A DNA stretch of 64,000 nt from Ectocarpus siliculosus (taxonomy: Eukaryota > Sar > Phaeophyceae > Ectocarpales > Ectocarpaceae), in the NCBI GenBank assembly GCA_000310025.1, contig FN648616.1, positions 38,499 through 102,498 on the forward strand, read 5' to 3'. The notes beneath the pieces are model-generated. The model did no database searches. It worked only from the letters and a program-made list of their open reading frames with translations, and was not told where the DNA came from. This document shows, one piece after another, positions 17,080 to 61,670 of the stretch (positions are counted from its first letter, which is position 1; the number at the start of each line of letters is the position of its first letter). A program made the position numbers and the translations under genes.

Positions 17080-17770
17080 CGGTGGTCCATGTTCACGGCG
17101 TGTCGAGCATCATCTTACGGGGCAACGTAGAAATCAGCAACAACGACACACGCCCGGTGACATTCTTGACAACAGGCCCGCGCCTTCGGTACGTTTCGCC
17201 CTCAGAAACAAAATATCAAGAAACGACACAAACTCCCGTCCTGTGGTACACAGGGCAACACAGTCTACATCGTGCGCTGCAAGGCAAATACCCTACGGCG
17301 ATCAGCTCCTGCAGAATGTACAATCCTCCCGCCTCCACGCCTTTAGGTTGAATTGCCAGGGTAAAAGTGTCACAACTGCTGGGTTCGCGTGCCCTCAGGA
17401 CGTGTCTACCCTTTTGCCGCCCATCATACACCTGTTCTCGGTGGTCGGTGTACAACATTTCACAACATCTCACAGGGTCGATGGCAGGACTCCGATTTGT
17501 TCAGCACAGTGGACTACCATAGACGTCCTCCGCGACCTATGTCCTGTTGCCGCCCAAGTTATTCGTACCTTTCTCGGGCGAGTCGTGTCACGAAAAGAAT
17601 AAACCATGCACAAGAGGGGAGCGCGAACTCGACACGATGGGGCATCATGGTCTTGCTTGCTGACAGCGGCGGGGTTGTACTTAGACTCGTACCCGTCTTA
17701 CCAGTGATGCCGGTCCCATTCTACGTCGAATCCTGAACTCGCCAATCCCGAGAGCGTGCCTCGAAAGCTG
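17080..17770 (-). repeat. 3' flank of FNIP gene A, homologous to 34830-35546
   Basis: Blocks shared with the 3' side of FNIP gene B include ACACGGTCTACATCGTGCGT-like sequence (17257 versus 35004), TTTTGCCGCCC followed by GGTCGGTGTA (about 17412-17452 versus 35160-35197), CAACTTGACACGAT-like sequence, and GCGGGGTTGT-type sequence (17668 versus 35411). They keep the same order and spacing, so the duplication is larger than the gene. Confidence 0.65.
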
Positions 17771-19291
17771 TCATAGCAGACTATGTCCGCAACGAGTCAC
17801 ACTCTGTAAGGAGGCCGGCCACACGACTCCGACGATAGGTTGGTTGAAATTCGATCCAAATACATCCCCGAATGATAACTGTCGCAAGGAGACCGGCCAC
17901 ACAACTCTGATGATGGGCTGATTGAACCGGAAACCAAATGATAACTGCTGCAACGAGGCTGGCCACACGACCTCGGCGATGGGCTGGTTGAAGAAACGAC
18001 CAAACGATAGCCGCTGCAGGGACGCTGGCCACACGACTCGGGCGATGGGCTGGTTGAACTGATCCCAGAACGATAGCTGCTGCAGGGAGACCGGCCACAC
18101 GGCTTGGGCGATGGGCTGGTTGAATTCATCCCCAAACGATAAGTGTTGCAGGGAAGTCGGCCACACAACTTCGGTGATGGGGCGGTTAAAGCACCTTCCA
18201 TAAGATAGCTGCCTCAGAGAAGATGGCCACATGACTCCGACGATGGGCTGGTCAAATTTGAAACTAAACACTAGCCGCTCCAAGTTGGGCGGCCACACGG
18301 TTCCAACGATGGGCTGATTAAATTTGAAACTAAATGACAGGCGCTGCAAGGAGGCTGGCCACATGGCTCCAACGATGGGCTGGTTGAACTCACGGTCAAA
18401 TGACAGGCGCTGCAGGGAGGCCGGCCACACGACTTCGACGATGGCCTGGTTGAAGGATCGTCCAAACCATAGTTGCTGCAGAGAGGTGGGCCATATGACT
18501 CCAACGATGGGCTGGTTGAACTCAGGGCCAAACGTCAGGCGCTTCAGGGAGGCGGGCCACACGACTTCGACGATGGCCTGGTTGAAGGATCGTCCAAGCC
18601 ATAGCTGCTGCAGAGAGGCGGGCCACACGACCTCGGCGATGGGCTGGTTGAAGTCCCTTAACAACCATAGCTGCTGCAGGGAGGCAGGCCATGCAATATT
18701 CGCGGGTATGTTCGATGTGAACACAAGCCGCTTGAGGTCTCGAGGCCAAACCACCATCTCCTGGCTTGCTGCCGATGAGTCACCATTTTCCCGACGACGT
18801 TCGGACCCGGACCGCAGCTCTATAGCAGCCGTCTGCGGTAACATGCCTGTCGGAAGCGCCCACGTGAAACCAAAAGCCTTCACTACCGGCACGCCATTCC
18901 AGGTGGACACCGCTCCACTGCGGCTGTTGGGTGCGGTGTGTAACGTGGAAGGACAACACAAGCTGCGGGGCAATTGTCGGTCGACACGCACTTGCAAGGT
19001 CGGGACACTTCTACACGCCCCACAAAACGCCAGCGACACAAGCTGTAGCTCCAGTGTAGACGCATACCAGCGCTTATCATGTTCGTCACAAACCTGGTTC
19101 AATGCGACGATGAAGGCGTCCAGGCAGTAGACTCCTCCTGGGACAGAGGATGGAGGATATACGCGTACAATGCAAACGAAACGTGGCGTGAGCCTAAGGG
19201 GCAGGGTCTTGCTGCGAGATTGAGTCAGAGATATCGGGGACAGGGGCGTAAGAGAGGAAGGAGGTCCTCCGAGATGATAAAAAAAGGGCAA
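17771..19291 (-). CDS. FNIP (IP22) repeat protein A
   Basis: The open frame spans 506 codons. The conserved part begins near residue 56 (CLDAFIVALNQ, nucleotide 19126), where its paralogue has a splice-acceptor-like sequence; the first about 55 residues are probably intron, with an unseen upstream exon. A Cys-containing domain follows (STLELQLVSLAFCGACRS), then a Ser-rich linker. Residues 205-494 are 13 tandem 22-residue repeats of the form LQxLSFGxxFNQPI + VxVVWPAS, and the cap is LQSVTRCGHSLL. This matches the FNIP/IP22 family of Dictyostelium, some giant viruses and stramenopiles, where repeats stack as a leucine-rich-like solenoid used for binding. The last repeat has a 4-residue insertion. 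No signal peptide or membrane segment is evident. Partners are unknown. Confidence 0.8.
   Translation of the reverse strand: MPFFYHLGGPPSSLTPLSPISLTQSRSKTLPLRLTPRFVCIVRVYPPSSVPGGVYCLDAFIVALNQVCDEHDKRWYASTLELQLVSLAFCGACRSVPTLQVRVDRQLPRSLCCPSTLHTAPNSRSGAVSTWNGVPVVKAFGFTWALPTGMLPQTAAIELRSGSERRRENGDSSAASQEMVVWPRDLKRLVFTSNIPANIAWPASLQQLWLLRDFNQPIAEVVWPASLQQLWLGRSFNQAIVEVVWPASLKRLTFGPEFNQPIVGVIWPTSLQQLWFGRSFNQAIVEVVWPASLQRLSFDREFNQPIVGAMWPASLQRLSFSFKFNQPIVGTVWPPNLERLVFSFKFDQPIVGVMWPSSLRQLSYGRCFNRPITEVVWPTSLQHLSFGDEFNQPIAQAVWPVSLQQLSFWDQFNQPIARVVWPASLQRLSFGRFFNQPIAEVVWPASLQQLSFGFRFNQPIIRVVWPVSLRQLSFGDVFGSNFNQPIVGVVWPASLQSVTRCGHSLL
17810..18679 (-). repeat. 66-bp coding repeat array, 13 copies (FNIP gene A)
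   Basis: Each 66-bp unit encodes one 22-residue FNIP repeat. Units 2 and 4 (both with GRSFNQAIVEVVWPAS) are nearly the same in DNA, which points to a 132-bp two-unit duplication. Residues 7-9 and 15-17 of the unit vary most, while FNQ-P and WP are nearly fixed. Confidence 0.85.
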
Positions 19292-20984
19292 GAAACGCCA
19301 TAACTACCAAAAACAGCCGTGTCCTGTAAATTAGCAACTCTATTTTGTCTGTTCATGTTGGACACCCCTCTTTCGAATATTATGTCGGGGCGGGCAAAAA
19401 GAAAGTTTACTGTCGAAGACCGAATATACCGTAGTTTATTGTGCGCGAAAGAATTCGAAACATCTCCCAGATCTACGAATTGTAATGGTATTTGACCCCT
19501 TCCTTCAGAATCAATCACCTTTGAGCTGTGTGGAACTCTCTTGTCCGACCACAGTAGCAGGTTGTTGTTGCTTTCCGTTGTTCTCTTTCTCTTGATTAAC
19601 GCTTTCCAAGCCAACTCACAATATCCCACGCACACACGATCATAGATCGCCTGTACGCACACACTGAACAGAAGGGCACATGTCTCGGCATAAAGCCCTG
19701 ATCTAGCATGACGTCACGTCTTAGCATCCGACGGCGCCACATAACCATGATCAACCACGATCACATGTCTACCTCCAAATACCATAACAGAATGTGTTAG
19801 GGTCCTTGTTGTGCCGCCCTGGAGGCGTGTTGGTTCGGATGTCTTGGTTCGGTTTTCTGGGGTTCCACAACGGGAAAGGTCTCACGGAGTTCTAATTCTG
19901 CTGCCTCGTTGTTCCCGCAGTGCTGTTTGTCTTCTATACAGCAGCGCACAGAGAGGGGGACGGATGCATGTGGATAGCTCTCGTTATTGACTGCTAGCTG
20001 CTCTCCTGCTGCATCTGCTTCCTGCTGTGGGAACAAGAGCCGCACACAACAGCAAACTTTATCATCATCGGCAGAGGGTGAGTCCCGGTCACAACTTACA
20101 GCGCTGCACAGTATAGCCGAGTGGTGTGGGTTCCGCGCCGATAATCCGTTTGGGTGGTGGCGTGATGTTGCCGCGTGCGTAATGAGACCGCAAATCGAAA
20201 GTACTGTAGCAACGCATCACATCAAACATTAGCCCGACAAATAAGTCAACTATTGCCCTACAAGCCCTCGCGCGCCACTGCTGCTGTGCTACCCTATCCC
20301 TGCTGTACAGCAGTCATGACATCTTGGGGGTGCTGGAACTACTGTACGTATCGTTGCTGCTGTTGGATGTTGGATGGTCGGTGCGCGTCTTTTCTGTCTG
20401 CGAGGGGCGAGATGGGCAAAATTTGGGTCGTACTGACCAAAAAATATTATTTGTGTGCGTGTGTTGCGCCATTATACCCATCAGAAAAACAAGTCAGCTA
20501 TAGTCTATGGTCTACAAGGCCGTGCACTGCTGCTGTACTACGCTCTTGCTGCGGTAAGCTGTCGTGGCGCCTAGTGGGATGCTCGCGACAATACTTCAGT
20601 CGAGGCTATACATAGTCCCGCATGGATTTCGTTGGAAAAATCTATGCGTATTGTGCGGCGCAATCACTCCCGGTACAGTATGGGTAGAAAATAATTGATG
20701 GGTAAGTTTGAGAGTTACCTGGGCAATGCAGGGGGCAGAACTTTCGGAGCCCCTGTCAGAGGGGGGCGGTCCACTCCCACTCGATAATTCCTACATCATG
20801 TCCAAGGCACAAAATACTGCTGCTGTCCGATAAGAGTCGATATCAAAAGTGAGGTCTTCTTCCAGATTGCGCACAGCGTGGTACGCATATCCCTTACCAG
20901 TGTTTACCGCCGACGGAACAAAAACATTAGAGGAATATTGTCCCCCACCTTCCGCGTACCGCTGTAAGTGTCATTTGCTACTGC

Positions 20985-21080
20985 CCTCTCTTCCGTTGCA
21001 GCCTCAACAAATCAACCTCTCTCACCTTGAGTACCCATGGCGACCGCGCTGCGCACCGAGAGTGTGGGCAATCGGCGTCC
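20985..21080 (+). repeat. Dispersed repeat family, copy 1
   Basis: The core CCTCAAC..A...AACC + TCTCACCTTGAGTACCCATG + GCGACCGC recurs at 32060-32140 and 41290-41380 with about 70-80% identity by eye. Coding potential is absent, so it is probably a transposon fragment. Confidence 0.5.
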
Positions 21081-21695
21081 TGTTTGCGATTGTCAGTGCC
21101 TAGGGGAACATACCAGCACACATTCGGCATTCGGCGGACCCCTGTAAGGGTTGCAAAACACAGGTCCGCAAGGAGAACCGGTTCCAATGTCGTGGTTCAG
21201 GGTTCACGTGTTCAGGTGCTCAGTTAGCAGGGTATAAAAGAGTGCCTGCGGCCCTGCGGTCGCGCAGCGTTTTGAGGGGAAAACGCTCTCAGCGCAGAAT
21301 CTCCTGGGGCGAATCTGCGGCTTGCCGTAGAAATAGTTTTGGCCACACGTTTTCGCCGGAGGCGAATATTTTTTTTTGCGGACCCTATCCGCGCCGGTAG
21401 GCAAGAAAAAAAATGTTACACTGCTGTTTTTTCGCTGGGAAGAGAAACATATCCTTGTTTACTAGACTGACCGGGGGCGGGGTAATAGTTTTTTTTAGGG
21501 TTGGAAGAACAGTACCTGCAGTAGGCTCGTGCGTTGTTGTTAGAGATATATACTATATGTTGTACCATTGGCTCAAATTTACCACACAGCTGTCAGACAC
21601 AGCAGCAGCAGTGTTGAGTTGTGGGGGCGCCATAAGTTGTGGGGGCGTACATAATTTGATACAGAGAGGGGGGGTGGTGTTCATCATCATCATCA

Positions 21696-21765
21696 TGAAT
21701 GCGGACCGCACCTCATAAATAAATGCGGCCCGCACCTCATATATATATGCGGCCCGCACACTCAA
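21696..21765. repeat. Three tandem palindromic units TGCGGnCCGCA
   Basis: About 25-bp units, each containing the palindrome TGCGG(A/C)CCGCA followed by CCTCAT and an AT spacer, sit at about 21699, 21723 and 21748. A decayed fourth (TGCGGGTCGCA) is near 21814. Confidence 0.65.
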
Positions 21766-22163
21766 CAGGAAACGCGCGTCCCACATATATATGTATGCCC
21801 AGAAAGATCCATAATGCGGGTCGCAGGAAGGAAGTAGAGAGGGGGGTGTTGTGTTATTCACCATCAGCTTTGCAGCGCAAAAAAAAAAACTCTGTTCCTC
21901 TCTCTGGTTCGAGCTTGCATCTGGCGACTCAAAAGCTTGTGATGGGTGACCAAACTAGCACGGAAGGCACAGATGGCGCCCTAGGCCCTCGCACACAAGT
22001 ATAGAGAGGTTTACAGCAGCAGTGCATGCATGGACCCTCCCGCCTCGCTCTCCCGGTGATGTGTGTGTATCTCCCGCCCCGCCTGCCCATGTCCCCTGGT
22101 CTCATCTGTGTACGTAGACTATATGTATGTTTTTGTGCCTTGCCACGAGCAGCAGCAGCAGTA

Positions 22164-22187
22164 CAGAACGCGCCACCACTTAAGAAC
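22164..22187 (+). repeat. Left terminal inverted repeat
   Basis: 24-bp perfect inverted match to 29307-29330; outer flank TA. Confidence 0.85.
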
Positions 22188-22471
22188 TTAGCAGTTAAGA
22201 ACTTGAGCCTCAAAAAATCCAAAAACTAAGAACATGGCCATAAGAACATGTGCTCAGTTCTGACGTCGTATAAGAACTAGAACCCGCCTTGGTAGTGTAC
22301 CAATGCTCACACAGATAAGAACGGAGCCCAAAACACGGGCGGCTGCAAGATAAGAACGCGAGATAAGGTGGCGGGGGTGACCCCAACAGCAGTTAGTTTC
22401 AGATTCAAGGGGTGGGGGGGGGGGAGGGGCACCCCGTGAAATATTCTTGCACGTGCCGAGGGAGGTGACCG

Positions 22472-23371
22472 ATGTACACACAGTGTACCCCCCTCTGCGA
22501 GGCATTTCGTGTGCTCGTGGTGCTGGGTGCGTTCCACGCTGCGTGTATGCTGATCAGGCAATGGGTTGGGGCTGCCATGGAAATTCTCGACAGCCGCGAG
22601 GAGTACCGGTTTCGCCTTTTCGAGAAGTGCGGCATGGCGATGGCTGTTGGCCGTTCGGGCGATGACCGAATCAACTTGGAGGGTTTGGACAAACCGTATA
22701 CCTTCATGGGCGCCGAGGACTCCAGCGATGACGAGGGACCTCTAGAGCCTGGGGAGGGTGCGGGGGGAGGGGGTGACCAGAGGTTTGAGGGAGACGGAGA
22801 CACCAGCAGGGAGGGCATGGAGGACGGCGGGTCCAGCGACGAAGACGATCACGGCAAGTTGGATGTTCACCAGACTCTTTGTATTTTGTCGTTGTTGTTG
22901 CCGTTGCTGTTGCTGGTGCTGGTGCTGTTGCTATTGTTGTTGTTGTTGCTGTTGTTATTATTGTTATTGTTACCGCTGTTGCTTCCATGGATGTTTCATG
23001 TTGAGGAAACTAACTTTCTGACGACGGTGATGTTACTGCGTGATTCAATGCCGATCTCTGCAGACACGGCCCGCGGCCAGAACGACGAGCTGAGTCTTGT
23101 GGACGAAGACGACACCATGGACCCGGCCCATGAGATTCACGGCATGCAGATTCCCGACGGTTTTCGCCTTCAAGAGGCTACTCCCGGTGTTCTTGATAAT
23201 TCGTTACTGCAGCGTGGAGTACTAGTTAGGCTGAGTCTAGGTTGGTTCGGTGGGCTGATCACTCGACAGTCTAAGGAGCGTACCCGTCACCTTTACGACT
23301 ACCGTGTGCATTTTGAGCTAGACCAAAGTACACACACGCAGCATGAAGCTGCCGTTGGAGAAGTGCAGTGA
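22472..23371 (+). pseudogene. Transposon-borne ORF fragment, transposase-associated C-terminus
   Basis: The 299-codon frame starts MYTQCTPLC, has an acidic middle (GAEDSSDDEGPLEP, GSSDEDDHGKL) and a poly-Leu run produced by a (GTT/CTG)n tract at 22885-22985, which is more likely an intron or slippage tract. It ends with GWFGGLITRQSKERTRHLYD then YRVHFELDQ. That last motif resembles the small beta domain (W..G.I......Y.Y.V.F) that terminates many stramenopile transposon proteins. Coding resemblance continues past the stop in another frame (LEKCSEDADAVVGSWVLLEG at about 23356), so the end is frameshifted. It is the probable remnant cargo of the host transposon. Confidence 0.5.
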
Positions 23372-23575
23372 AGATGCGGATGCGGTGGTAGGGTCGTGGG
23401 TTTTGCTGGAGGGGACACCGTAGAGGAGGGGAGAGATCCTACCATCGCAGAGCAGGGGAGAGATCTGGCCACAAGCAGTACACTCACAACAGGAGGAGTT
23501 ACTAGAGCGGGGAGGACACGCACGCCCAACGTGACACTTGTGGACCATTAAGCAGTTGAATGTTGCCCATGATAC

Positions 23576-23907
23576 TGTTGGTAAACTCGTGGCTTCTGGG
23601 GAAAAGATGTTGTATTGATGAGACCTTGGGTCGAGAGACAGGGTAGCAGAGTGGAGTGAGCTGGGTGCGCGAGCACCGCAGCATCAGCCATGTCGCTCGA
23701 CCAACACACAAAACATGGAACTCGGACCAATGTACTATCCGACATACCGAGAACACGCTCGGGTCTATGAACCATCCGACATACCGAGAACACCATCCAC
23801 GAAGAACATTCCTAGAAACATTCCTACCAAACGACAGTCCCGTTATTTGAACTTCCTGTTAGTGTTCTGCGCTACTTGTCGACACACAGCAGCAATAATC
23901 ACGAACA
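23576..23907 (-). repeat. 3' LTR of the copia element
   Basis: 332 bp, TG...CA, apparently identical to 28664-28995 at a constant offset of 5,088. Confidence 0.92.
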
Positions 23908-23989
23908 CCCTCCCTTGGGGCTGTTGTCTCGACCAGACCAAATATATATCAGAAATAGCAAAAATTGAAAACACGACTCAGACCTCTAT

Positions 23990-26083
23990 CTACTTCTCAG
24001 ATCTCGAGCCTAGAGCAAAATTACGATGAACTTCAAAAAGATCTCTCGGCAGCGCCTTCGTCAGGATGTCCGCATGCTGTCTTTCGCTAGCGACATGACT
24101 GATTTCCAACACTCCCTCTTCTGTCAAATTCCGAAGAAAATGGTGCCTCACGTCAATGTGCTTACTGTTACACGAACTAAGTGGATTCTCAGCAAGTGCA
24201 ATTGCACCCTCGTTATCCTCGCGTACCTGGATCTTACCAAGCTTCTCACTAGGCCTCAAGAACTCGAGCATTCCGTTGACAAACAGAGCCTCTTTCACAC
24301 CGTCACCCATCGCAACATACTCTGCTTCAGTGGTTGAAAGTGTGACACATTTCTGCGTCCTAGAAATCCAAGCAACAAGACAGTCAGCTACAAGAACTAG
24401 TGCTCCCGAAACTGATCTACGATCAGTGGCCTTACTGGCAAAGTCTGCGTCTACGTATACCAACGTGCCTACGTCTACCATAGTGTCCTGCTTGTACTTC
24501 AAAGTTAGATGTGCCGTCTCCAGAAGATAATTCAGAATCTTCTGGGCCGCCTTCCAGTGGCTCTTCTTTGGCTCGTGAGAGTGCCTCGCCACCGCCCGCA
24601 CAGCATTTGAGATGTCGGGCCTTGTCTGGTTGGCGATCCACATCAGGCTCCCCACCACCTCTCGGAACGGCACATCTCCTGCCCCCTCATCCTCCATCAC
24701 GGACCTGTAATCGTTAGCAGGGGAAGCAGGGATCGAGCTGGTGCGACAAACATTGAATCTCTCGAGAACACTCCTGATGTAACTCTCTTGAGACATCTCA
24801 ATCGTACCAGCCTCGCGGTCGCGAACGAATGCGCAACCAAGAAAGAACTTGACCTCGCCCAAATTCTTCGTGGGGAGAGAGTCACCTAGCGCTTCCACAA
24901 CCATCTTGGCAAGCCTCTCAATTCCTGCATACAGAATGTCATCCACATGAATCGCAATCATACCCAACACCTCGTCTCCCATAATGAAACGAAGAACACA
25001 GGGGTCAGACAGAGACTGTTCGAAACCAATCCTCTTCAGGTCCGACACAAGTCTCTTGTGAAATGTTCTAGATGCCTGTCTCAGTCCATACAAACTCTTG
25101 TCTAAACGGACTACCTTTCCTGTCATCGACTCACAGCCAGGAGGCAACTTCATGAACACCTCGTGATCCAATTCCGACTGAACAAACGCTTGCTCAATGT
25201 CAAAGTGAAGAAATTCCAAGTCATACTTGCACGCCAATGCTACCAACAAACGAATTGATGCAGCATTTGCAGTAGGCGAGAAAGTCTCAAGATAATCCAC
25301 ACCATGCTTCTGCTTGAAGCCCTTCGCTACAAGCCTAGCCTTGGCCTTCACTATCTTGCCTGTTTCATCTGCTTTCCATTTGTAGACCCATCTAGCATCT
25401 ATCACGTTACAGCCTATCGGAGCCTTTACTGCTAACGCAAACGTTCCTGCTCTTAACAAGCCTTCAAATTCTACAGACATGGCTTCGTCCCAAATCGTGG
25501 AATACTTTGATTGGCGGGCTTCTTGATAGCTTCCCGGTTCTGACTCTACATCTTGAATGAGCACTTTCGGCAATTCCATTGCATCAGATGCTCTCTGTTC
25601 GACTAAGAGTGCCAATATTATTTCTGATGCGGAGATGGGTCCTAGAGTGGCCATGAGGCCGGGTACGCTCTGCTGATTTACTGCCCGAGTTTGCGCACGG
25701 GTTCTGCCTTCTCTGACTTCAACATTCTCATTCATAGCAGTGTTGTAACTAGCAAGCTCATGCCGCGCACGACGATTGGATGGTACGTGCGTAGCAGGGG
25801 GAAATGCCTCCGATTGTACCTCCTGCCCTCCCGGCTCAACCAACTCTTGATCCAAACCTTCCTGACTCTCCGACTCTACCTCCTGCCCTCCCGGACCCGC
25901 CGATTCTGTCTGCCCTGGCTCCGGCCCTCCCTGCCCTCCCTCATCGGAGAACTCGTCTGCTGGAGAAGACACAGGGGGAGCTGAGCTACTAGGGGAATTA
26001 ATCGCGGGCGAAGATGGCATAGAGGGGGACAATGCCTGCATCAACACTGCCAACCTCATCGATTGTTCCACCAGAGACATCAC
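23990..26083 (-). CDS. Copia pol: reverse transcriptase and RNase H
   Basis: The 697-codon frame starts at a non-ATG codon, so it is the 3' part of the polyprotein. A Pro/Ser/Gly/Glu-rich linker (QEVESESQEGLDQELVEPGG) precedes the RVT_2 domain: VIDARWVYKWKADETG, KARLVAKGFKQ, DIEQAFVQSELDHEVFMKLP, SLYGLRQA and the catalytic HVDDILYAG (YVDD box variant). RNase H shows VDADFASKATDRRSVSGA and LSTTEAEYVAM. The frame is intact to its stop, unlike the upstream domains. It lies in a different frame from integrase, so expression as one polyprotein would need a shift. Confidence 0.92.
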   Translation of the reverse strand: MMSLVEQSMRLAVLMQALSPSMPSSPAINSPSSSAPPVSSPADEFSDEGGQGGPEPGQTESAGPGGQEVESESQEGLDQELVEPGGQEVQSEAFPPATHVPSNRRARHELASYNTAMNENVEVREGRTRAQTRAVNQQSVPGLMATLGPISASEIILALLVEQRASDAMELPKVLIQDVESEPGSYQEARQSKYSTIWDEAMSVEFEGLLRAGTFALAVKAPIGCNVIDARWVYKWKADETGKIVKAKARLVAKGFKQKHGVDYLETFSPTANAASIRLLVALACKYDLEFLHFDIEQAFVQSELDHEVFMKLPPGCESMTGKVVRLDKSLYGLRQASRTFHKRLVSDLKRIGFEQSLSDPCVLRFIMGDEVLGMIAIHVDDILYAGIERLAKMVVEALGDSLPTKNLGEVKFFLGCAFVRDREAGTIEMSQESYIRSVLERFNVCRTSSIPASPANDYRSVMEDEGAGDVPFREVVGSLMWIANQTRPDISNAVRAVARHSHEPKKSHWKAAQKILNYLLETAHLTLKYKQDTMVDVGTLVYVDADFASKATDRRSVSGALVLVADCLVAWISRTQKCVTLSTTEAEYVAMGDGVKEALFVNGMLEFLRPSEKLGKIQVREDNEGAIALAENPLSSCNSKHIDVRHHFLRNLTEEGVLEISHVASERQHADILTKALPRDLFEVHRNFALGSRSEK

Positions 26084-27411
26084 GTCGCAAAAGAATGTGG
26101 GGAACTCCTCTTCCTAAAAGCGGCCATACCTCAGCTTCTACATCGTCGTCACGTTCCTCCCCTCCCTGCTCTGCAACCTCTATCGGCAAGAGAGACGGTT
26201 GCAGTGGAGGGAGTTGTGACGGCAACGCTTCCCATGTCACATTCCTCGTTTCCTGAATAGTTCCAGCCCTCGTAAGTACTCTATGACAGTTACGCGGGTG
26301 GTCTCTCGAAGGACCGACATAAAAGCAAGCCTCACCCTTCGGTAGCAGCTTAGACGGACGCTGCCACCTACAGTACGCCGGTTTCAAAAACGGATACGGT
26401 CTAGCATGACTAGCTTCACCATGCCACATCTCATACGGTGACTTACTGTCGGGGTTAGCGGAGCAAGCTGTGTGGTTGATTGCTTCGCAAGCCCAATGCA
26501 TCGCCTCAGCCCATAGTCTATCAGTCTTAGGTAATTGCACATGCCCAAACAAAACTTTTGCCTGAATACGAGCAGCCATTGCCGCCGCCTCAATCAATCC
26601 CAAACCACGCTCTGCAACACCGTTGTATTGGGGACTGTAAGCCGGGGTGAACTCTTGCTTAATCAAGAGCTCGTTGCACACGGACGCAAATTCTCCTCCG
26701 AAAACCTCCCACCCATTGTCAGATCTAACAATCTCAACCAATGATGGGATACCATCAGCACAAACACTTGCAAGGAAACTCCGGAAAGCAACTCCGGAAA
26801 GCACTCGCAGCGTCTGATTTACTTTTCAGGAAATACATCCATGTACGTCTTGTGAAATCATCCTTCACTATCATGGGGTAATGTTTACCCCCTACGGACG
26901 CAACGTCCTTCCGCCCTCCCAGGTCAACAAAAACTCTGCCCAACTTTTTGTCTGATCTGCATTTTGTTTCATGAGCAATCCCTTTCTTGAATGCCTTCGA
27001 CATCGAACATCCCGTACAAGCATGCATTTTACCGGTCAACTCGATACCTAGTCGCTTTGCAGTTGTACGAAGCAATCCCTCATGCGAATGAGCATAAATG
27101 TTATGAAACTCGTTCACATCCATCTTAGATTCATGCTTGGGGTTTGAAGGAGTGAGGGCAGTTAACACCGAACCAACAGATTTATCTTCAAGACGATACG
27201 CAGTCTTAATTAGCATGCCATCGAAGCTCTGAAAAATAGTATGTCCGTCGAAAACAGTCATCACACCATCAGGACCACCAAGCAAGGTAATTCCATGACT
27301 CACCACCAATCTGCGCTGGGAGAAAAGAGGTGATATCCCAAGTTGGGAGATTACAATACATTCTCCAACTCTACAGAAACTCAAATCAGCAGTCACAAAC
27401 ACCAACTCCAA
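25998..27411 (-). pseudogene. Copia integrase, frameshifted
   Basis: In the upstream frame (27411-26755): GAG-pre-integrase residues, zinc-binding H-x4-H (HNIYAH) with CTGC, then the first catalytic Asp (VFVDLGG). The second frame (26804-25998) carries the second Asp (IVRSDNGWEVFGGEF) and the Glu (YSPQYNGVAERGLGLIE), completing DDE. The frames meet at a 13-bp tandem duplication of AACTCCGGAAAGC (26777-26802), which accounts for the shift. A second shift separates integrase from reverse transcriptase near 26000-26083. Confidence 0.88.
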
Positions 27412-28572
27412 GGTTCCAGACAGTGCTCTGGCTCAAGGGTAGAAAGTGATTTTTCAACACTCGAAATGCCTTGCTGGGGAAACCTGCATGCCTAGCCATG
27501 GTTTTGAGAGAGTTCTTCAAACAGTCGAACAAAATCCACCTTGATATCTCAGTCTGGCACAGCACACCCATGTATGTTGTATCCTTTCTCTTACCCAGGG
27601 GGTCAGATCGAATTCAATGCTTGCAATCGAAATCTCTACATGTAGCACAGAAACAAAAGCCTCATACAGATTATTGTTGTGGGCACTCAGTAGAAACAAT
27701 TGTGACCACGACGGATACGACACGTCCGTCCCGTCAAAAACAGAAGCTTTGGGAACTTTGAAAAGGACTCCTACCCAAGTTTTCTCCTGTGTTATTAATG
27801 CCGACCCCAGGAATATATGTGTTTCCACTGGCGACACATCCCCACCACTCACTCGATGGAGTAGATGGGGGCGGAATGGAAGACTGGCTACCTAAAGCCC
27901 CACTAACCATTCCCGGAATGGAAGACTGACTACCTAAAGTCCCACTAACCATTCCCGAACCGAAAGACTGGCTACTACCCGAAGCCCCACTAACAGTTCC
28001 AATCGAACCAAAGCTTGCAGCACCAGCAGAGGGACGATTTACAGCAGATGCATGAGGGTTCAAGTCTGAGTCTAGAAGACTACTACTCCCAACTCTCACG
28101 CTGGACATGCCAAGGACTTGGGCACTGCTGCACTGCTGCCCTTACCTCCCGCAGTCCTGCCAGTAGCATCTACAGGATGCCAACCGGCGTCGGTTCCGCC
28201 GCTGGCTCTACCACCAGCAGAGGAACGACAAACAACAATTGCACGAAGGTTCAAGCCTGAGTCTGCAAGACTACTACTCCCAACCCACATGCTGGACATG
28301 CCAAAGCCTTGGACACTACTGTCCGTACCTCCCACAGTCCTGCCAGTGACATCCGATTGATGCACACCAGCATACTCTGTTCCGCCGCTTCCCGGCGCAG
28401 CAGCAAATGAAACAGAGGACTCCACCTGATCACCTCGTTGCCCAACAAGCGACTTGATTATGCTCGTGAGCTGGGACAACAGTGTCTCAATCGAATCCAG
28501 TCTCTCACCACCAATAACATCCTGCGAATAACCCGGAGGTGGGTCATCCAACATGATCCCCAGCAGGCCCAC
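27386..28572 (-). pseudogene. Copia gag remnant with internal deletion
   Basis: From the 5' side: a Ser/Gly-rich leader with an internal duplication (GMSSMWVGSSSLADSGLNL and MSSVRVGSSSLLDSDLN), then UBN2-type gag (FDGTDVSYPSWSQLFLLSAH; later FDCLKNSLKTMA and FRVLKNHFLPLSQS) in shifting frames. Near 27415 it passes straight into GAG-pre-integrase sequence. The CCHC zinc knuckle and the D-S/T-G protease motif expected between them are absent. Confidence 0.75.
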
Positions 28573-28663
28573 TCATCACGAAGCAAGGTGATCAATCTTC
28601 CTCCGTTCAGTCTTGACGTACAGTCCAAGGGGACAAGCAGCAGTCGACTGGTTCGCTATAGCG

Positions 28664-28995
28664 TGTTGGTAAACTCGTGGCTTCTGGGGAAAAGATGTTG
28701 TATTGATGAGACCTTGGGTCGAGAGACAGGGTAGCAGAGTGGAGTGAGCTGGGTGCGCGAGCACCGCAGCATCAGCCATGTCGCTCGACCAACACACAAA
28801 ACATGGAACTCGGACCAATGTACTATCCGACATACCGAGAACACGCTCGGGTCTATGAACCATCCGACATACCGAGAACACCATCCACGAAGAACATTCC
28901 TAGAAACATTCCTACCAAACGACAGTCCCGTTATTTGAACTTCCTGTTAGTGTTCTGCGCTACTTGTCGACACACAGCAGCAATAATCACGAACA
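28664..28995 (-). repeat. 5' LTR of the copia element
   Basis: 332 bp, apparently identical to 23576-23907; the flank GATAC at 28996 matches the one before the other LTR. Confidence 0.92.
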
Positions 28996-29306
28996 GATAC
29001 CTCTTCTTACGGCGATGCCGCGTCTGTCTGCCCTCTTCTACTTTACAGTGATCGCGGAAGCTGCAGTGCGTTCGATCCGGAGGTCCTGTTGAACGATAGT
29101 TTTCTGCTGGTGTCAAACACTCTACTTTCAAGTGTCACGTTGAAGTCCATCCGCATTGACCTACTGTACAGTAGTTGGTGTAGAAATAAGAACAAGAACC
29201 CCATTTATCGTAGGTGGATGCCTGCTCCAAATAAGAACTCGGCAAATAAGAACATGTGCTCGGTTTGGGGCAACCAATAAGCGTCGAGCCTCACGCAAAA
29301 TAAGCG

Positions 29307-29330
29307 GTTCTTAAGTGGTGGCGCGTTCTG
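29307..29330 (-). repeat. Right terminal inverted repeat
   Basis: Inverted perfect copy of 22164-22187; outer flank TA. Confidence 0.85.
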
Positions 29331-29332
29331 TA

Positions 29333-32059
29333 GCTCAGCAGCAGAACCGGAGAACCAAAAAATCACGTCTGCCTCAGTTTTTGGCGGGGACGCTTGAATG
29401 CGACATATGTATTCTGCACAACACGTGCTGTGCTATCTCGACGCACCGACCACGGATTGACAAGGTAGCTGTTGGGACAGCTCGCGCAAAATTTTACTTG
29501 TTTTTTTGTGAACAAGTCGTAGATTGCGATTTGGTGCCTAGATGGTGAAGTGGGGTCCCAGTCTGCTGCTGCGTATTTGGTCACAGACGGACGGACGTCT
29601 ATCGTGTGCTTACCCCCCCCCCCCAGGGGCAAATTGTTTTGTTTTTTCGGACACACACGTGCACATGACGATCCCTCCAAACAGCTTTTTTGCAAAACAA
29701 AAAGTGCACCCCTATACGGGCCACTCTTCCCGCAATATAAACCCATTAATACAACACGTACAATACACCACAAACAAATGTTTGATGTTTGACGCTGTAT
29801 TTTCTGCTGGAAAAGACAATCGTAATCAATCCTGGTTTGAAACACGTAAAAACACCACAACTTTACCAACCATGGTTTTTAGACGGAAAACCCCAAATAT
29901 TTTAGGGCCCGCGGCGCCTTGCGTAAAGGACCAGGGAGGGTGTTCGCGTATGCATCAGCGCATGCATGAGGATATTCCAACGGGACCGTAGAAAGTGGCT
30001 ACGCAGATAGGAATTGATAGTTCCCTGGGTTGGGTCTATGGTTGAGCCACGGGGCTCGGCTCTGCGGGAGTGCTTGCTACGTTGTGGCACTCTCTCTCCC
30101 GCCGCGTTGTCTGACAGTCTTGATCTCGTCTGATGTCAATAGTACAAGCGACACAAGAATCAACACACACAAGGGTTTACGAAATCCACATGTCAACAAG
30201 AGACGCACCACGCGTAGTCGGGGGCGACGGAAGGGGAGAAGAGGCCGGAGCTGAAAGCGCAACCTTCTTCTCCAGCAAAGCGACGCAGCTTCTGAGAATC
30301 GACAGGGCCGGCTAGAGCTTTGAACCGGACGAGACCAGCACCAACTCGGCTAGCTTGGTTGCGTCGCCCCACAGCTCGACCCTATTCATCTGCGGAATCG
30401 TCAATTTGCCGGTGTTGTGAAGTGTCTTGCTGGTTTCGGATCGGTCACAGCAGGTCATACAGGTCGGACATGAACGCTGCTCGCAACTCTGGAATACCGC
30501 GATCAGATCCAAGGCGCTTCAAACTATGTACTGCTTCGCCACGTTAGGAGTCTATGAGACTGTCCCTTGTAGTAGAAAACAGAAGATATCCCAAGTGTTT
30601 GCTCCGTGGTGTGCAAACTCTGCCTATGCCCCCAGAACATCGCCGCCCGGCGTTGCCCGCAGGTTGCTTGATCCAGTAATGCAAATCCCAATTTTGGTGT
30701 TGTAGCCAGCCACTGTCGACCATCACAGACACCATAGCCAAACGCATACTACAATAGAGCACATACAGTGTAGGCATCAATTTGAAAGACGGCATGTCAC
30801 AACGCCAACTGCATTGCTTGGTATAGCACACAACGTAGCTGGGGGAAAAGGACGGATTAGGTGCCCAAAGAGCGCCCATGAAATGCCATGTGTACCGTGT
30901 GCTTGATCAGCAGCCCCAGGGTCAGACATATCTACATCTGTGTTTACAGCGTCCAGGCGCCTGGCTGATGGGATGCCTGTGACGCCCCAGGGATGTCCCA
31001 GTGGGACGTCCTGAGCGACCCAGCCAGACGCGTGGGACGCCTCACGCGACGGCCGGTGGACCGTCTTCCGCGTCCCAAGGGCCGTCCCAGGCGTCCTATG
31101 GGACATGTCACGCCTACGTCAATTCCCAACCTTCATCACTCGGCAATTTTGAATGTACCAGGACAGAGAATTTGAAGTATGATTACGCGGGCGAATCTCT
31201 CTAATACATGTATTCCATGTGTGAAACTGTTCATTTATCTGTGGGCCGCGCGCTTTCAAAACGTTTGTTGCACCCCAATCTGAATAAATGAAGGAAAGGG
31301 GACACCAGAGCAGAGGTGTCGTCACCGCGGCAGCGAAGAAACCACCGTACAGATATGCTGCCGTGCGGGTTGTTCATCATACCAACGAGATGATTGATGA
31401 TGGTTGCTTTGGGGTGTTCATTCCAAATAACCTCATATGGATTCAAGAGAGCGAAGAAGATGCAGAGATGCCAGAGCATCACCATCATCACATTGCTTGA
31501 AGTGGTCTGGCGAGAGGACGGGGGTGCAGACGATATGGAAACATGCACGATCCCTTGGTGTTGGCACTACTGCTATAGCTCGACATAAAAATGCGCATGC
31601 GGGTATTTGTGGGATCTCCCTCCTCGCTGTTTCTACGCTCATCTTCTTGCTGCTGCTACTGCTGCTGCTGCGCCTCGTTATCGATAGGAACTAAGTTTGG
31701 TCTTTGTTCGTTCTATCCTGGTTTGGGCGTGTGGTATGCGGCAGTTGCAGCTCCCAGGCTCTCGGCTGATGTGTGTTGGTCTGTGAACAGGTTAGTTCGG
31801 ATGCGGTACCCAGAAGCGGCGTAAGTGCAAATAAAATAACTCGAAAATAGACGCCAAAGTAGGCGCCAAGTTGATGTGAATCTGTTCTGCAGTAGTGGCT
31901 TGTTGCTGCCTGATCATTCCAGTACGGACGACGCTTGGGCTGTGATGCCACTGATGACAGCATAAAACTATTGTACATATCTTGGACTTGGCACGCGTGT
32001 TGGCCACCTACTGACCCGCACTGTGAAGTTTCATATGTTATTTCGTGTATCCCTTTTAT
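29333..32059. other. Intergenic, no gene recognised
   Basis: Scattered short open frames only. On the minus strand 30312-30450 (ending AELVLVSSGSKL) has mild coding character. A foldback region at 30965-31135 is listed separately. A CTG tract lies at 31645-31675. Confidence 0.4.
30965..31135. repeat. Imperfect foldback rich in GGGACG/CGTCCC
   Basis: The block has many GGGACG/CGTCCC words in opposite orientations. The centre pairs TGGGACGC...GACGG (31041-31063) with CCGTC...GCGTCCCA (31070-31087). Outer arms such as GGGATG...GTGACG and CGTCAC-type words can pair less well. It may be a small foldback element or a structured RNA. Confidence 0.5.
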
Positions 32060-32140
32060 ACCGTTTCTATCTCAACCCAACCCAACCCTTCTCACCTTTG
32101 GTAGTCATGGCAACCGTTGTGCACCAATAGCTCTGTGGAC
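32060..32140 (+). repeat. Dispersed repeat family, copy 2
   Basis: CTCAACCCAACCCAACCC, then TCTCACCTTTGGTAGTCATG and GCAACCGTTGTGCACC, homologous to 20985-21080 and 41290-41380. Confidence 0.5.
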
Positions 32141-32309
32141 GTTCTTGCCAGGGTCAGAAAGTGCGTTGCGAGCAATCGGCGGAACCCGTTGCAGGGTCGG
32201 TCGGATCGACCTGCCGTCCCTCAGCCCCGTTGACGAGGGAAAGGGACGGCTGGACCCTTTCGCGATATAAATGAAATATGCACGCAACGCAGGAGGAAGG
32301 TTTCGCAAG

Positions 32310-34580
32310 AAAATAAAAAAAGAAGAAAAAGAGCCCTCTCTCCGGAGTTCACCAGGCAAAGGGCAGTTTGCAATGAATGCTCGATCCTCGACTACATCCT
32401 GGTAGATAGGGGGAGCACACAGATCCCAGAACTGCACGTAAGTGCGATAGATATAGGTTCGACCGACCACTTCAAACATCGACCGATCTAGAAAGATGGA
32501 GTAAGAAACAGAGGAAAGTGTTCCGGTGGAAAGTAGAGCGTTTGGGAGACGAGGGAACACGGGATGAATTCCAGAAGGGACTGGCTGGAAGTGTAGAACC
32601 CTTCAGGAAACTGCTGAGAAGCGTCCAAAACGGACAGACAGGTAGACGTACAAGTAGCAGGGGACAGGGTGATCGAAGGGTGGGAGTCCATAGTGAACAC
32701 AACGGCAGAGAGAGTAGTGGGAGAGAAAGTGGTACGATGTGGGGTATCGGTTAAGTGGTGGGATGACGAGCTGAAAGAAGAAATAGGGGAACATGGAGAA
32801 ATCTTCAAGCAGTACCTGAGTGAGGGGGCTGAGGAGAGTTGGGAAAAGTACAGGGCCAAGAGGAAACAGGTGAAGGGACTACAGTGAAAAACAAGAAAAA
32901 GTGCATTTGGGACGAAGTAGTGCAGAAGGCCAACGGAGGCCTGGAGGGGAACGTCAAGCAGATGTGGGAACGGATTATGTAGTGGGATGGTAAAAAAGAC
33001 CGCGCAAGGGGGGGATACAGGGGTGTAGCAACTTTGCGAGGTGTAAACGGTGGACTAGCCAGCAGTGGGAAGGGAAAAAGGGAAGTTCTAGCAGGACACT
33101 ACAAGAGACTTGGAGTGCCGTCGGAGAATGAACCTTTTGACCAAGTGTTTAAGAAGGAGGTGGACGCATGGGCCCAGAAAGAAGAAGAGACATCGAAGGT
33201 AGAGGTTGGGAACGTAGAACTAGAAAAGGAGTGCACTGAGACGAGGTTGAGGCGTGTGTGAACAAGCTGCAGTGCCACAAAGCAGCAGGGGCGGATGGGA
33301 TAATACAGTAGTCGACGACGAGTTCATGAAGTTTGGGGGGAAGGGGATGATCCAGCTGATGGTACTGTTGTACAACTGGGTGTGGAAAAACGAGTGTGCG
33401 CCAAGTAGATGGAGGGAAGGAGTGGTTGTGAACTTGTTTAAGAAAGGAGACAAGACTGACCCAGGAAACTACAGGGGTATCACACTGTTGAACACAGTAG
33501 GAAAAGTGTTCTGTAAGCTGCTGAACGATAGGATAGTGGGAGTATTGGAGAAGGAACGTAGAAGTAGTGAGGGCCAGGCAGGTTTCCGACAGAAGAGGAG
33601 GTCCGTACACCACGCAATCACGGTAGGGAGAATCATCCAAGGTAGAAAGAGGGCGGGAAAGCCGACGTACTGCTCCTTCCTGGACGTGAAAAAGGCATAC
33701 GATATGGTATGGAGAAATGGGCTGTGGAAACAATTGTTCAAGTACGGGATCAAGGGGAAATTATGGAGAGTGCTGAAGAAGATGACAGAGTGTACGAAAA
33801 GCGCGGCCATGCTAGACGGAGAACTGTCTAAATTCTTCGACATTGAGCAAGGGGTCCCACAAGGTTGCACGCTGTCCCCAACATTGTTCCAGGTGTTCAT
33901 CAACGATCTGTTGGAAGTCGTAGAGGCAGTCCGGAAGGGAGTAAAAGTAGGGGACACGGAAACTTCGGTGTCAGGAATGCTGTTTGCGGATGACTTTGTT
34001 GGTATGTCGGACACCTCTGAGGGACTGCAACTGCAAATTGACGCGGCGAATAAGTTTACTGATAAGTGGAGATTGTCTGCCAACGTTAAGAAGAGTGCCG
34101 TCATGGTATGCAACTAGGACAGGGAGGAACCAGTAGAACATAGATGGAAGTGGGGGATAGAGGAGATTGCAGTAGTGGACCAGTACACATACCTCGGAGT
34201 AGAGATCGCAAAAGACTGCTCGTGGAATGCACACATGTCCAAGGTAGCGGAAAAGGGCAAAGCACGAGTAGGGAAGCTGCACCCAATACTCGCAAACCGG
34301 CACCTCGATACACGCATCAAATTGACGGTTTTGAAGAGCGTAATATCGTACCACCGCTAGAGTACGCCGGAGAGTATGGGAAGGCAATAAGAACGTAGTG
34401 AAAGCATTCGAGGCGGCGCAGATGAAAGCAGCGAAAATCATCCTAGGATGCTCCAAGCGCACAAGCAATGCAGCCGTCAGGGCAGAATTGGGGATCCAAT
34501 CCCTACGGTCGGGCAGAGACGCAAGGAAGCTGACATGGCAGCTGTGGAGTGCAGCGTACGAAACTCTTCAGTTTCCGATG
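32310..34580 (+). pseudogene. Decayed, 5'-truncated LINE (APE endonuclease tail and reverse transcriptase)
   Basis: It starts with the last residues of an apurinic-type endonuclease (CSILDYILVDRGSTQIPELH then AIDIGSTDH, 32379-32480). The inter-domain linker follows in several frames (VKWWDDELKEEIGEHGE; LAGHYKRLGVPSENEPFDQV). Then reverse transcriptase 33254-34117: REGVVVNLFKKGDKTDPGNY, RGITLLNTVGK, SSEGQAGFRQKR, FLDVKKAYDMVW, VPQGCTLSPTLF and the catalytic LFADDFVGM. The post-RT region (YTYLGVEIAKDCSWNAHM; then VKAFEAAQMKAAKIILGC) runs to about 34580 in two more frames. Several stops and shifts mean it is dead. No clear poly(A) tail. The 5' truncation is typical of target-primed reverse transcription. 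Confidence 0.9.
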
Positions 34581-34829
34581 CAAATGCTCCACGGCTACGT
34601 TCTTGTCGTATGCAATGCCATGTATGTTTTCCCAAGTACCCTTCCTTGTATCTGTGAACGTGATGCAGCTTCCGGATGGCCCCACGCGGGTCATAAGTGA
34701 ATGCTCGAAACTGCACGGCGGTCCATGAAAAAACCCTAACCCTTACCCTGATTCAACAAGTCGGGTTTACCTAGCTACGAACCCACGTGTTACACCCAGG
34801 CACATTAACTTAGCATGCCATCTCCGTCG

Positions 34830-35546
34830 ATTGTTCGCTCCCTTGGCGTGCCGAGCATCGCGCTGCGGTCACAATACACAAGCAGGGACATGATACATGC
34901 TCGATTACATGCTCCGACACAGAATCCGCCGTAACCCTTGCCCTCCACGCACGCACCCTCCGGTGTGTTTCGTCCCCCAGATTTCCGGTGGCGTACAGCG
35001 AAACACGGTCTACATCGTGCGTTGCAACGCACAGCTTACGGCGACCATCTACTGTGGAATGCGCACCCCTCTTACACCCACGTTTGAACGTGGAATTAGC
35101 AGGGAATGTGCGTACTGCTCAAGTGTCTTGCCTTGATTCTGCGTCGGACTGGGTTAGTTGTTTTGCCGCCCTACACACACTTCCATCGTCGGTGTAGAAA
35201 ATTTCACAACGTCTCCAAGGCTCCACGCCAGGAAACTGATCTACCTATGCAGCACCATGGCCGCGCCAGGCCTTTCCCACGATCGTCGCTCTGCTGGTCC
35301 CCAAGAAAATGATGCCACTTTCGAGCGCATGTCATGAAAGCACAAGCAAATACACTTACGTAGAGAGGATTACCAACTTGACACGATTGGGCGCATTGGT
35401 CATCCTCGCTTACAGCGGTGGGGTTGTCAAGCACGCCGGAGATCAATAATGCACCTAGACGCGTACCCTTCTTTCTAACGATGGAGTTCCTAGTCTACCT
35501 TGCTGAACACAAGATCCGCACACCCTGCGTCGTTCGTCGACAGCAG
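34830..35546 (-). repeat. 3' flank of FNIP gene B, homologous to 17080-17770
   Basis: Ordered similarity blocks match the 3' flank of gene A; see that entry. The decayed LINE ends about 250 bp away. Confidence 0.65.
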
Positions 35547-37145
35547 TCAAAGCAGACTATGTCCGATACGAGTCAGACTTCGTAGCGAGGCCGGCCAAAT
35601 AACTCCGTCCACGGATTGGTCAAAACCAATCCCGAATGACAGCTGCTGCATGGAGGCCGGCCATACGACTCCGACGACGGGCTGGTTGAAGAAATGCCCA
35701 AACGATAAGTGTTGCAGGGAGGCCGGCCACACGACATGAACGATCGGCTGGTTGAATGTAGAACCAAACGAAAGCCGTCGTAGGGAGGCCGGCCACACGA
35801 CTCCGACCACAGGCTGGTTGAAGATACGCCCAAACGACAAGTGTTGCAGAGAGGCCGGCCACACAGCTCCGACGATGGGTTGGTTGAACATCCAACCAAA
35901 CGAAAGCCGCTGAAGGGAGGCCGGCCACACGACTCCGACAACAGGCTGGTTGAAACAAAAGCCAAACGACAACTGCTGCAGGGACGCCGGAAACACGGTT
36001 CCGACGATATGATGGTTGAATGGATATCCGAACGATAGCTGCAGCAGGGAGGTCGGCCACACAACTCCGATAACGGGTCGATTGAAGTTGTGCCCAAACG
36101 ATAGCTGCTCCAGGGAGGCTGGCCATACGGCTCCGGCGATGGGCTGGTTGAACGTACCCCAAAACGTCAGCTGTTGCAGGGAGGGCGGCCACATGGCTCC
36201 GACGACAGGCTGGTTGAATCCCAATCCTAACGATAATCTTTGTAGGGAGGCCGGCCACACGACGCCGGCAATAGGATGGTTGAACTTGAAACTAAACGAT
36301 AGCCGTCGCAGGGAGGCCGGCCACACGACACCGAGGATGGGCTGATTGAACATTGGACCAAACGATAACTGCTGAAGGGAAACTGGCCACACAGCTCCGA
36401 CGATGGGCTGGTTGAACTCACGACCAAACGATAGCCGCTGAAGGGAGACAGGCCACGCGACTCCGATGATGGGCTGGTTGAAGTAATCCCCAAACGACAG
36501 CTGCTGGAGGCAGGCAGGCCATGACACCGAGTTCACGGACCTTTCCGAATGAAACACCAACCGCCTGAGCTTTTGAAACCAACCCATGCCGCCTCGGCCT
36601 GTTGCAGATGAAGGTCCCGTTGGCTGACGATTTTCTGACACTTGGTGCAGCTCAGTGGCAGACTTCGGCAGTAGAATCTCCATCGGAAGTGCCCACATCC
36701 AACAATTAGCCTGCACAGCCGGCACTCGGCTCGAGATGCAAGCCTCTCGACTGCGTTTGTGGAGTGTCGCGTGTGACTTGCGAGGAGACCACAAGCTAAG
36801 AGGCGTTTGTCGATGGATATGCACGTCGAAGCTCAGGGCACTTCTGCACGCCCCACAAAACTCCAGTGACACAACCTGTAGCTCCAGCGTAGATATATAC
36901 CAACGCTTTGCTCGCCCATCGCCAGCCTGGTTCAACGCGACGATGAAGGCGTCCAGGCAGTCGCTCCTGCCTGGGAAGGGTGGTATACATACACGTAGGA
37001 ATGACGATAAAAAGGGTGTTGAACTTGGGACTGTTTCTTGCCACGCGAATGAGTACGTGAAGTCGGAAACAAGGGAAACGGCAGAAGAGGTGGGTTGTCC
37101 GAGTCGATACCAACATAATAAACGCAGCCCTTGATGATCAAACAC
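35547..37145 (-). CDS. FNIP (IP22) repeat protein B
   Basis: The open frame spans 532 codons and is paralogous to gene A over its whole conserved part. Similarity begins at CLDAFIVALNQ (residue 63, nucleotide 36959), just after an acceptor-like CCACCCTTCCCAG, so the true exon probably starts near 36970 and the upstream residues are intron. RWYISTLELQVVSLEFCGAC matches A closely; the linker (residues 105-185) has diverged strongly. Residues 213-520 are 14 FNIP repeats of 22 residues and the cap LRSLTRIGHSLL matches A. No membrane segment. As with A, a binding solenoid is the family expectation; the ligand is unknown. Confidence 0.82.
   Translation of the reverse strand: MFDHQGLRLLCWYRLGQPTSSAVSLVSDFTYSFAWQETVPSSTPFLSSFLRVCIPPFPGRSDCLDAFIVALNQAGDGRAKRWYISTLELQVVSLEFCGACRSALSFDVHIHRQTPLSLWSPRKSHATLHKRSREACISSRVPAVQANCWMWALPMEILLPKSATELHQVSENRQPTGPSSATGRGGMGWFQKLRRLVFHSERSVNSVSWPACLQQLSFGDYFNQPIIGVAWPVSLQRLSFGREFNQPIVGAVWPVSLQQLSFGPMFNQPILGVVWPASLRRLSFSFKFNHPIAGVVWPASLQRLSLGLGFNQPVVGAMWPPSLQQLTFWGTFNQPIAGAVWPASLEQLSFGHNFNRPVIGVVWPTSLLQLSFGYPFNHHIVGTVFPASLQQLSFGFCFNQPVVGVVWPASLQRLSFGWMFNQPIVGAVWPASLQHLSFGRIFNQPVVGVVWPASLRRLSFGSTFNQPIVHVVWPASLQHLSFGHFFNQPVVGVVWPASMQQLSFGIGFDQSVDGVIWPASLRSLTRIGHSLL
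35586..36509 (-). repeat. 66-bp coding repeat array, 14 copies (FNIP gene B)
   Basis: Repeats 9-13 alternate FNQPVVGVV with FNQPIVGAV or FNQPIVHVV, a two-unit (132-bp) periodicity. One repeat has FNHHIVGTVFPAS, losing the usual Gln-Pro and Trp. Confidence 0.85.
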
Positions 37146-40540: not shown

Positions 40541-41289
40541 GTCCGACCAGTGGCTTCCTTCCTACTCTGGTCAACCATCAACGCGCTTTTGAATGGCCTG
40601 TCAAACACGAACGATGTTGCCTGGTTTTCCTTGAATGTATTCATAGACCCGTGGAATTCTCATCTTGCTTCGAAAACAGTGATGTGGTGGTATACGACTC
40701 TGTACAGCAGTATGCTGTTGCTGTTGGAGACAAGCCCCAACCGCTGCTCTCTGTATGACAATTCAAGTTTTTTTACTCACTCCCCGACGGGTCTCACATG
40801 TCACGCGTATGATTGATAGGGGTTCCCTTTCGATTCGATACGAAATCAGTCTACGGCAGTAGTGCTGTGGAGCCAAATCTTTTGGCAAGACATGGACTAC
40901 GTGTTAGGATGTTCGCTTGGTATGCGCCTGGCGCCTGACTCGATATTCGCTGCCTGAGTGCCTGCGGTGAATGCCTTGTGCATGTGGGATGCTGTGTCAC
41001 GTTCTTTTTCACCAAGACACCACTTTCTTCGAAGATTGGCAACTTGCTGCTTTTTTTACCCGAGTCGACGACTGCTGTTCAGCAGGCAAACAACCTGGAA
41101 CATATTTGGAGGGGGAATTATGGCATGACCCCCACCTACCCCTTCCCAAACAGCAGTTGTGAGAGAAAAGGTGGTCTGTCCCACCGGACGAAAGGTCATG
41201 GGGGCCAAAGGAGCACCGGGGACTTGCGTGTGTTGCCTGAAGTTTCATCGTAAACTTCGAAGTATCAGCCGGATGTACCTCGTCTGCCC

Positions 41290-61069: not shown

Positions 61070-61670
61070 AAGAAGGAGGCTTCTAGGCATGTCCGATACC
61101 ATGCACTACCCAATTGCTTGACGAGAATAAGCATAAACGTAAACACAAAAAGGAGGCTTCTAGGCATATCCGATACCATGCCCTACCTAATTGCTTGACG
61201 AGAATAAGCATAAACATAAACACAAAAAGGAGGCTTCTAGGCATATCCGATACCATGCCCTACCCAATTGCTTGACGAGAAGAAACATAAAACATAGACA
61301 CAAAAAGGAGGCTTCTAGGCATATCCGATACCATGCACTACCCAATTGCTTGATAAAGTAAACATAAACACACACACAAGAAGGAGGCTTCTAGGCATAT
61401 CCGATACCATGCCCTACCTAATTGCTTGACGAGAATAAACATAAAACATAAACACAAGAAGGAGGCTTCTAGGCATATCCGATACCATGCCCTACCCAAT
61501 TGCTTGATGAGAAGAAACATAAAACATAAACACAAGAAGGAGGCTTCTAGGCATATCCGATACCATGCCCTACCCAATTGCTTGACGAGAATAAACATAA
61601 ACATAAAACACAAAAAGGAGGCTTCTAGGCATATCCGATACCATGCCCTACCCAATTGCTTGATGAAACA
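61065..61670. repeat. Minisatellite, 76-79 bp unit, 8 copies
   Basis: AGGAGGCTTCTAGGCAT recurs at 61073, 61151, 61228, 61306, 61382, 61460, 61539 and 61616. The rest of the unit is TCCGATACCATGCCCTACCC, AATTGCTTGACGAGAATAA and an A/C-rich spacer that absorbs the length variation. Confidence 0.92.

Follow-up and report, generated by a model that had tools for sequence, protein, structure and literature searches.

The window analysed here, a 64-kb stretch of brown-algal DNA, holds two minus-strand open reading frames, gene A (17771-19291) and gene B (35547-37145), each carrying an array of tandem repeats as one uninterrupted open frame. Both had been recognised in an initial annotation of the sequence, and its count of 13 repeats in A and 14 in B was recovered when the frames were split at WP, which delimits units from 18691 down to 17822 in A and from 36521 down to 35598 in B. 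The features referred to below are the following.

17239..19396, minus strand: duplicated block at A, 65.6% identical to B over 2270 alignment columns
17771..17821, minus strand: gene A C-terminal cap (WPASLQSVTRCGHSLL) and stop
17822..18691, minus strand: repeat array of gene A with 13 FNIP/FGxxFN units, all 22 residues long except the last (A13), which has 26
18692..19135, minus strand: gene A N-terminal region, an open frame common to B, constrained over about the first 36 codons and not over the rest, without known domain
23551-28938: Copia-type LTR element between A and B, with direct repeats at 23551-23850 and 28639-28938 (96%, at least 300 bp)
34984..37226, minus strand: duplicated block at B
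35547..35597, minus strand: gene B C-terminal cap (WPASLRSLTRIGHSLL) and stop
35598..36521, minus strand: gene B repeat array, 14 FNIP/FGxxFN units, each of 22 residues
36522..36971, minus strand: gene B N-terminal region, with 69 of 143 residues identical to A
61052-61664: high-identity tandem array, about 8 copies of 78 bp
61989-62736: high-identity tandem array, about 9 copies of 85 bp

The duplicated block, about 2.2 kb long, comprises the gene plus its flanks, with homology extending past the repeats on both sides; A and B are paralogues from this one block duplication. A six-frame search of the 64-kb window, allowing one mismatch, found no further tandem FNIP units. Two open frames lie antisense to the repeat genes, at 18324-19130 and 36655-37134 (both plus strand), and are probably shadows of the sense codon pattern.

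A and B belong securely to the FNIP/FGxxFN class of leucine-rich repeat (LRR) proteins. The Pfam FNIP family (PF05725, cut-off 21) matches gene A with 191.1 bits (E 2.8e-57) and gene B with 203.2 bits (E 4.5e-61), and in a phmmer search of PDB sequences the only strong matches to B among the seven listed were Crov588 (6e-136) and Crov539 (2e-52). Numbering follows PMC9525666, position 1 being the first L of LxxLxFGxxFN. Unit length is 22 residues in 26 of the 27 units; L4, F10 and P20 are invariant, and W19 (26 units), N11 (25), Q12 (23) and P13 (23) bear out the earlier description of FNQ-P and WP as nearly fixed. F6 is kept in 23 units and G7 in 20. The combination of P13 with W19 and P20 is the signature of the Crov539 subclass, and on sequence grounds both genes fall, like Crov539, in the WP subclass. 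Pfam matches of the arrays to DUF7182, DUF2938, PduV-EutP and Plectin were short or low-scoring and lay inside the repeats; we took them as chance, the PduV-EutP match exceeding its own cut-off by 0.8 bits.

The two solved relatives, Crov539 and Crov588 of Cafeteria roenbergensis virus (CroV; PDB 7ZAL, 6NYR; PMC9525666), have the 22-residue LxxLxFGxxFNQ repeat in common with A and B, and Crov539 also has QPI and WP. Unlike A and B, they are encoded in a viral genome and show no such N-terminal region; position 3, mostly Q or R in A and B, is given as His/Tyr or Thr in PMC9525666. The class is large: CroV has about 70 such proteins, and Dictyostelium and a brown alga printed as 'Endocarpus' contribute 557 and 104 sequences, respectively, those of the alga being mostly WP (PMC9525666); for Saccharina japonica 121 FNIP proteins are given in the accessible part of PMC4421812. 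Compared by description, these brown-algal proteins agree with A and B in Pfam family and WP sub-motif (PMC9525666; PMC4421812, partial text), and A and B very likely belong to the same set.

An AlphaFold model of B, built from two sequences, has a mean pLDDT of 65.5, with values of 68-92 in ten-residue blocks over the repeats and below 50 for residues 1-132. Each unit contributes one strand at positions 3-6, sometimes shorter in later units, and positions 8-9 come directly after it. The best Foldseek matches to this model were 6nyr (two chains; E 3e-19) and 7zal (8e-14), followed by other LRR proteins. The arrays are thus predicted by the model to form an LRR solenoid like that of the solved Crov structures, a fold that A and B would share with both viral proteins.

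Variability within the unit is concentrated at two positions. Over the 27 units entropy reaches 2.99 bits at position 8 and 3.76 bits at position 9, where 23 distinct dipeptides occur; the next highest values are 1.83 bits at position 15, 1.47 at position 16 and 1.12 at position 17, three positions occupied mainly by V/A/I, G/E and V/A, respectively. Counted over all 351 pairs of units, pN at codons 8-9 is 0.710 against a pS of 0.496 in the remaining 20 codons, a ratio between paralogous units of 1.43 (1.28-1.63, from a bootstrap that treats the units as independent, which 27 units of two genes are not). Codon bias may have lowered the reference pS. The excess recurs within A alone (1.46; 1.19-1.88) and within B alone (1.50; 1.29-1.74). 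Elsewhere pN falls below the synonymous reference: 0.61 of it at position 7, 0.51 at the concave-face positions 2, 3 and 5, and 0.15, indicating strong constraint, at ten core positions. Nucleotide distance at codons 8-9 exceeds that over the rest of the unit in 343 of the 351 pairs, and among the 14 closest pairs it does so in 13; B2 and B10 differ by 6.7% over the rest of the unit and by 67% at codons 8-9. There are counter-examples: the closest pair, A2/A4, has identical dipeptides, and A3/A5 nearly identical ones. These observations, from 27 units of two genes, support a hypervariability restricted to the two codons that encode the "xx" of FGxxFN.

The initial annotation had proposed that residues 7-9 and 15-17 both change from unit to unit on the exposed face of a solenoid. 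Diversification of exposed residues is supported for codons 8-9, in A, in B and in the pooled units, and published structures of the family do place positions 8-9 at the rim of the concave side (PMC9525666). Position 7, with G in 20 of 27 units, does not belong to the variable set, and the second site fails: pN at positions 15-17 is only 0.67 (0.52-0.84) of the rest pS. This agrees with PMC9525666, where residues 17-18 of the WP subclass are said to pack in the core; positions 15-17 do not form a second variable face.

Could the variability of positions 8-9 have arisen without selection? They might simply be the least constrained residues of the solenoid, drifting neutrally in old units on a surface with no binding role. 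In the published structures they do not contact the core (PMC9525666), and the N-terminal linker of A and B likewise evolves under little constraint. Under neutral drift, however, pN at codons 8-9 is not expected to surpass synonymous divergence, and here it does. Moreover, Ala and Val are missing among the 54 residues concerned (4.7 expected from base composition), and we regard drift as rather unlikely, though an explanation to be taken seriously. Alternatively, codons 7-9 might be a local hotspot of mutation or conversion that generates the diversity. Synonymous divergence inside codons 8-9 is itself high (pS 0.77, from few sites), and at codon 7 the third base approaches saturation, being as diverse (0.74) as the variable codons. 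Yet the adjacent 3' codon, F10, is quiet, with a third-base diversity of 0.26 and its first two bases fixed. Distances at codons 8-9 also correlate with both unit halves (r 0.19, p 0.0008; r 0.15, p 0.006), from which it follows that the variable codons partly track unit history; and the residues at positions 8-9 are biased in make-up, charged ones numbering 21 of 54 (13.4 expected from base composition). A hotspot is thus very unlikely, and we infer that selection rather than local mutation diversifies the two codons.

The order of the units offers a second perspective on the pair. The unit order of A aligns with that of B no better than permuted orders do, whether all positions are used (p 0.45 and 0.81 for two gap costs) or the variable codons are left out (p 0.55 and 0.59). 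Copies of B made to diverge in place, at assumed rates roughly equal to the flank synonymous rate, reach mean scores of 1.45-1.69 (5% quantiles between 1.21 and 1.48), where the actual pair scores 0.14; permuted scores in this simulation (0.36-0.39) are above those of the real arrays (0.16). For these 27 units the comparison supports the view that A and B are no longer collinear in unit order while their flanks are, and the rearrangement of the arrays suggested by the initial annotation holds to that extent. Its two-unit duplications survive in part. Permutation supports a duplication of A2A3 to A4A5 (p 0.025), in one of the two arrays tested, but gives no support to B10-11/B12-13, the strongest candidate of B (p 0.25). 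Although TRF ranks a 132-bp period over the 66-bp period, we rejected it as a general feature, since neither array has an excess of similarity at lag 2 (p 0.36 in A, 0.34 in B). We also dropped the idea of one pool of units shared by both arrays, units within an array being slightly closer to each other (difference 0.010, p 0.014); the nearest neighbour lies in the same array for 19 of the 27 units, where about 13 would be expected. Tested for linkage, the two halves of the unit give r 0.07 (p 0.28), and an interleaved control gives r 0.17 (p 0.09). Unequal crossing over, the process invoked by the initial annotation, is compatible with these data as a candidate source of array change.

The N-terminal region presents a different picture. 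Its frame is open in both copies across 143 codons, with dS 0.43 and dN 0.38. Constraint is confined to the first 36 codons (dS 0.44, dN 0.14); dS and dN in three later blocks are 0.22 and 0.41, 0.57 and 0.47, and 0.51 and 0.59. For three alternative readings, one sense and two antisense, dN/dS is below that of the ORF frame, but all three contain stops in at least one copy. What speaks for the N-terminal frame is therefore its freedom from stops, together with the constraint on its first block. No Pfam family was found in the N-terminal region of B, nor in the first 69 residues of A or B; that of A gives one weak match below cut-off (DUF2895, E 0.069). An F-box, considered in view of the F-box fusions of Megavirus (PMC9525666), has no Pfam support. 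Fold prediction for the region has a mean pLDDT of 34.1 and yields no fold.

The TTG and GTG starts of the two ORFs are mechanical. Single-base indels seen on reading the A/B alignment 5' of a shared CCCAG suggest that the first 50-60 residues or so of each ORF are probably non-coding. The conserved AACATGAACAGACA, with an ATG at 19356-19354, is a candidate start, although inspection by eye did not reveal, in both copies, a donor and an acceptor that agree in phase for a first exon. With the N-terminal region unconstrained past 36 codons and the first exon not found, A and B may be pseudogenes.

Taken together, the properties of A and B are best explained by a recognition scaffold, a role predicted from sequence. 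We consider it reasonably probable that these WP-subclass FNIP/FGxxFN paralogues have dipeptides diversified by selection, a lost unit order and a putative binding surface. On this reading the conserved L, L, F, F-N-Q-P, I and W-P would build the core of a curved solenoid, with the two free residues between FG and FN placed at the edge of its concave face. Selection would diversify these two codons in every repeat, and each protein would display its contact dipeptides, 13 in A and 14 in B, in a row. The arrays would have lost their common unit order after the gene duplication, and the dipeptide row could serve as a binding surface of a specificity peculiar to each gene. The array would be joined to a short conserved N-terminal segment. 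To assign these genes an immune function would be a guess.

That A and B are instead remnants of giant-virus or virophage DNA, lacking any host role, is highly improbable: FNIP genes are abundant in CroV and mavirus (PMC9525666; PMC3671162, partial text), a FNIP pseudogene lies inside a viral insert of Ectocarpus (excerpt of PMC2373305) and the Saccharina FNIP sequences are reported as nearest to CroV (PMC4421812, in part), but the core codons are strongly constrained, both arrays are open from end to end, four of six other window ORFs scanned against Pfam had no match and two had retroelement domains, and protein-based scans of a viral-contig collection gave 3 pattern matches with the B repeats, 23 with the alignment and 4 with Crov539, none of which was confirmed. 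A motif scan of the same viral contigs found 12 loci with one motif apiece and zero tandem arrays. A collection of genome contigs gave 56 pattern matches, none confirmed.

The finding in A and B illustrates well a property that has already been published and does not amount to a new kind of system. The two variable positions, the idea of multi-ligand recognition and the comparison with lamprey variable lymphocyte receptors are already on record for the family (PMC9525666). Positions 8-9 are likewise the most variable in Crov588 (3.19 and 2.79 bits, the next value being 1.91, by our own count of 24 units), and a FNIP gene is among the hypervariable regions of reactivated virophages (PMC10945749, partial text). 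The likeness to the lamprey receptors, as compared in PMC9525666, is one of working principle, since both use an LRR scaffold on which the contact residues vary; A and B do not belong to that group, and there is no evidence in them of somatic rearrangement. The initial annotation had also drawn a parallel with immune-like repeat genes of brown algae. Brown-algal LRR-ROCO GTPases do combine an LRR solenoid, reported diversifying selection on concave-side positions and a candidate recognition role (accessible part of PMC11378527). The mechanism differs: each LRR of the ROCO genes is a separate 72-bp exon subject to exon shuffling (same source), whereas A and B each hold their array in a single frame, and neither ORF has a Pfam match to ROC-COR domains.

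A and B add to the published picture a codon-level test, in which only two codons of each repeat are diversified, and the case of a duplicated pair whose unit order has been lost. The literature searched, which included few subscription journals, contained no title on selection tests in brown-algal FNIP repeats. Ordinary strain data would now suffice to test the recognition idea in brown algae, a group in which immune receptors remain candidates. It is tempting to speculate, doubtful as the proposal is, that FGxxFN solenoids form a repertoire spread over the brown-algal genome, with a specificity that lies in two residues of each repeat, under diversifying selection and with rearrangement of single units. 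If true, this repertoire would constitute a germline recognition system separate from the exon-shuffled ROCO receptors and mechanistically unlike them.

Some observations concern the remainder of the window. The Copia-type element has an RVT_2 match in the ORF at 23990-26083 and a weak integrase match, below cut-off, in that at 25998-26804. Its presence marks the DNA as eukaryotic, and the WP sub-motif together with the published FNIP counts points to a brown alga as the most likely source. The sequence at 63600-64000 looks like a deteriorated version of about 62940-63340; its long homopolymers and blurred bases are those expected of a low-quality read end, and it is probably an assembly artefact. 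Finally, comparison of the A and B loci revealed a short inverted pair, 21907-22027 and 40487-40612, about 73% identical over 128 columns, which is possibly a small mobile element.
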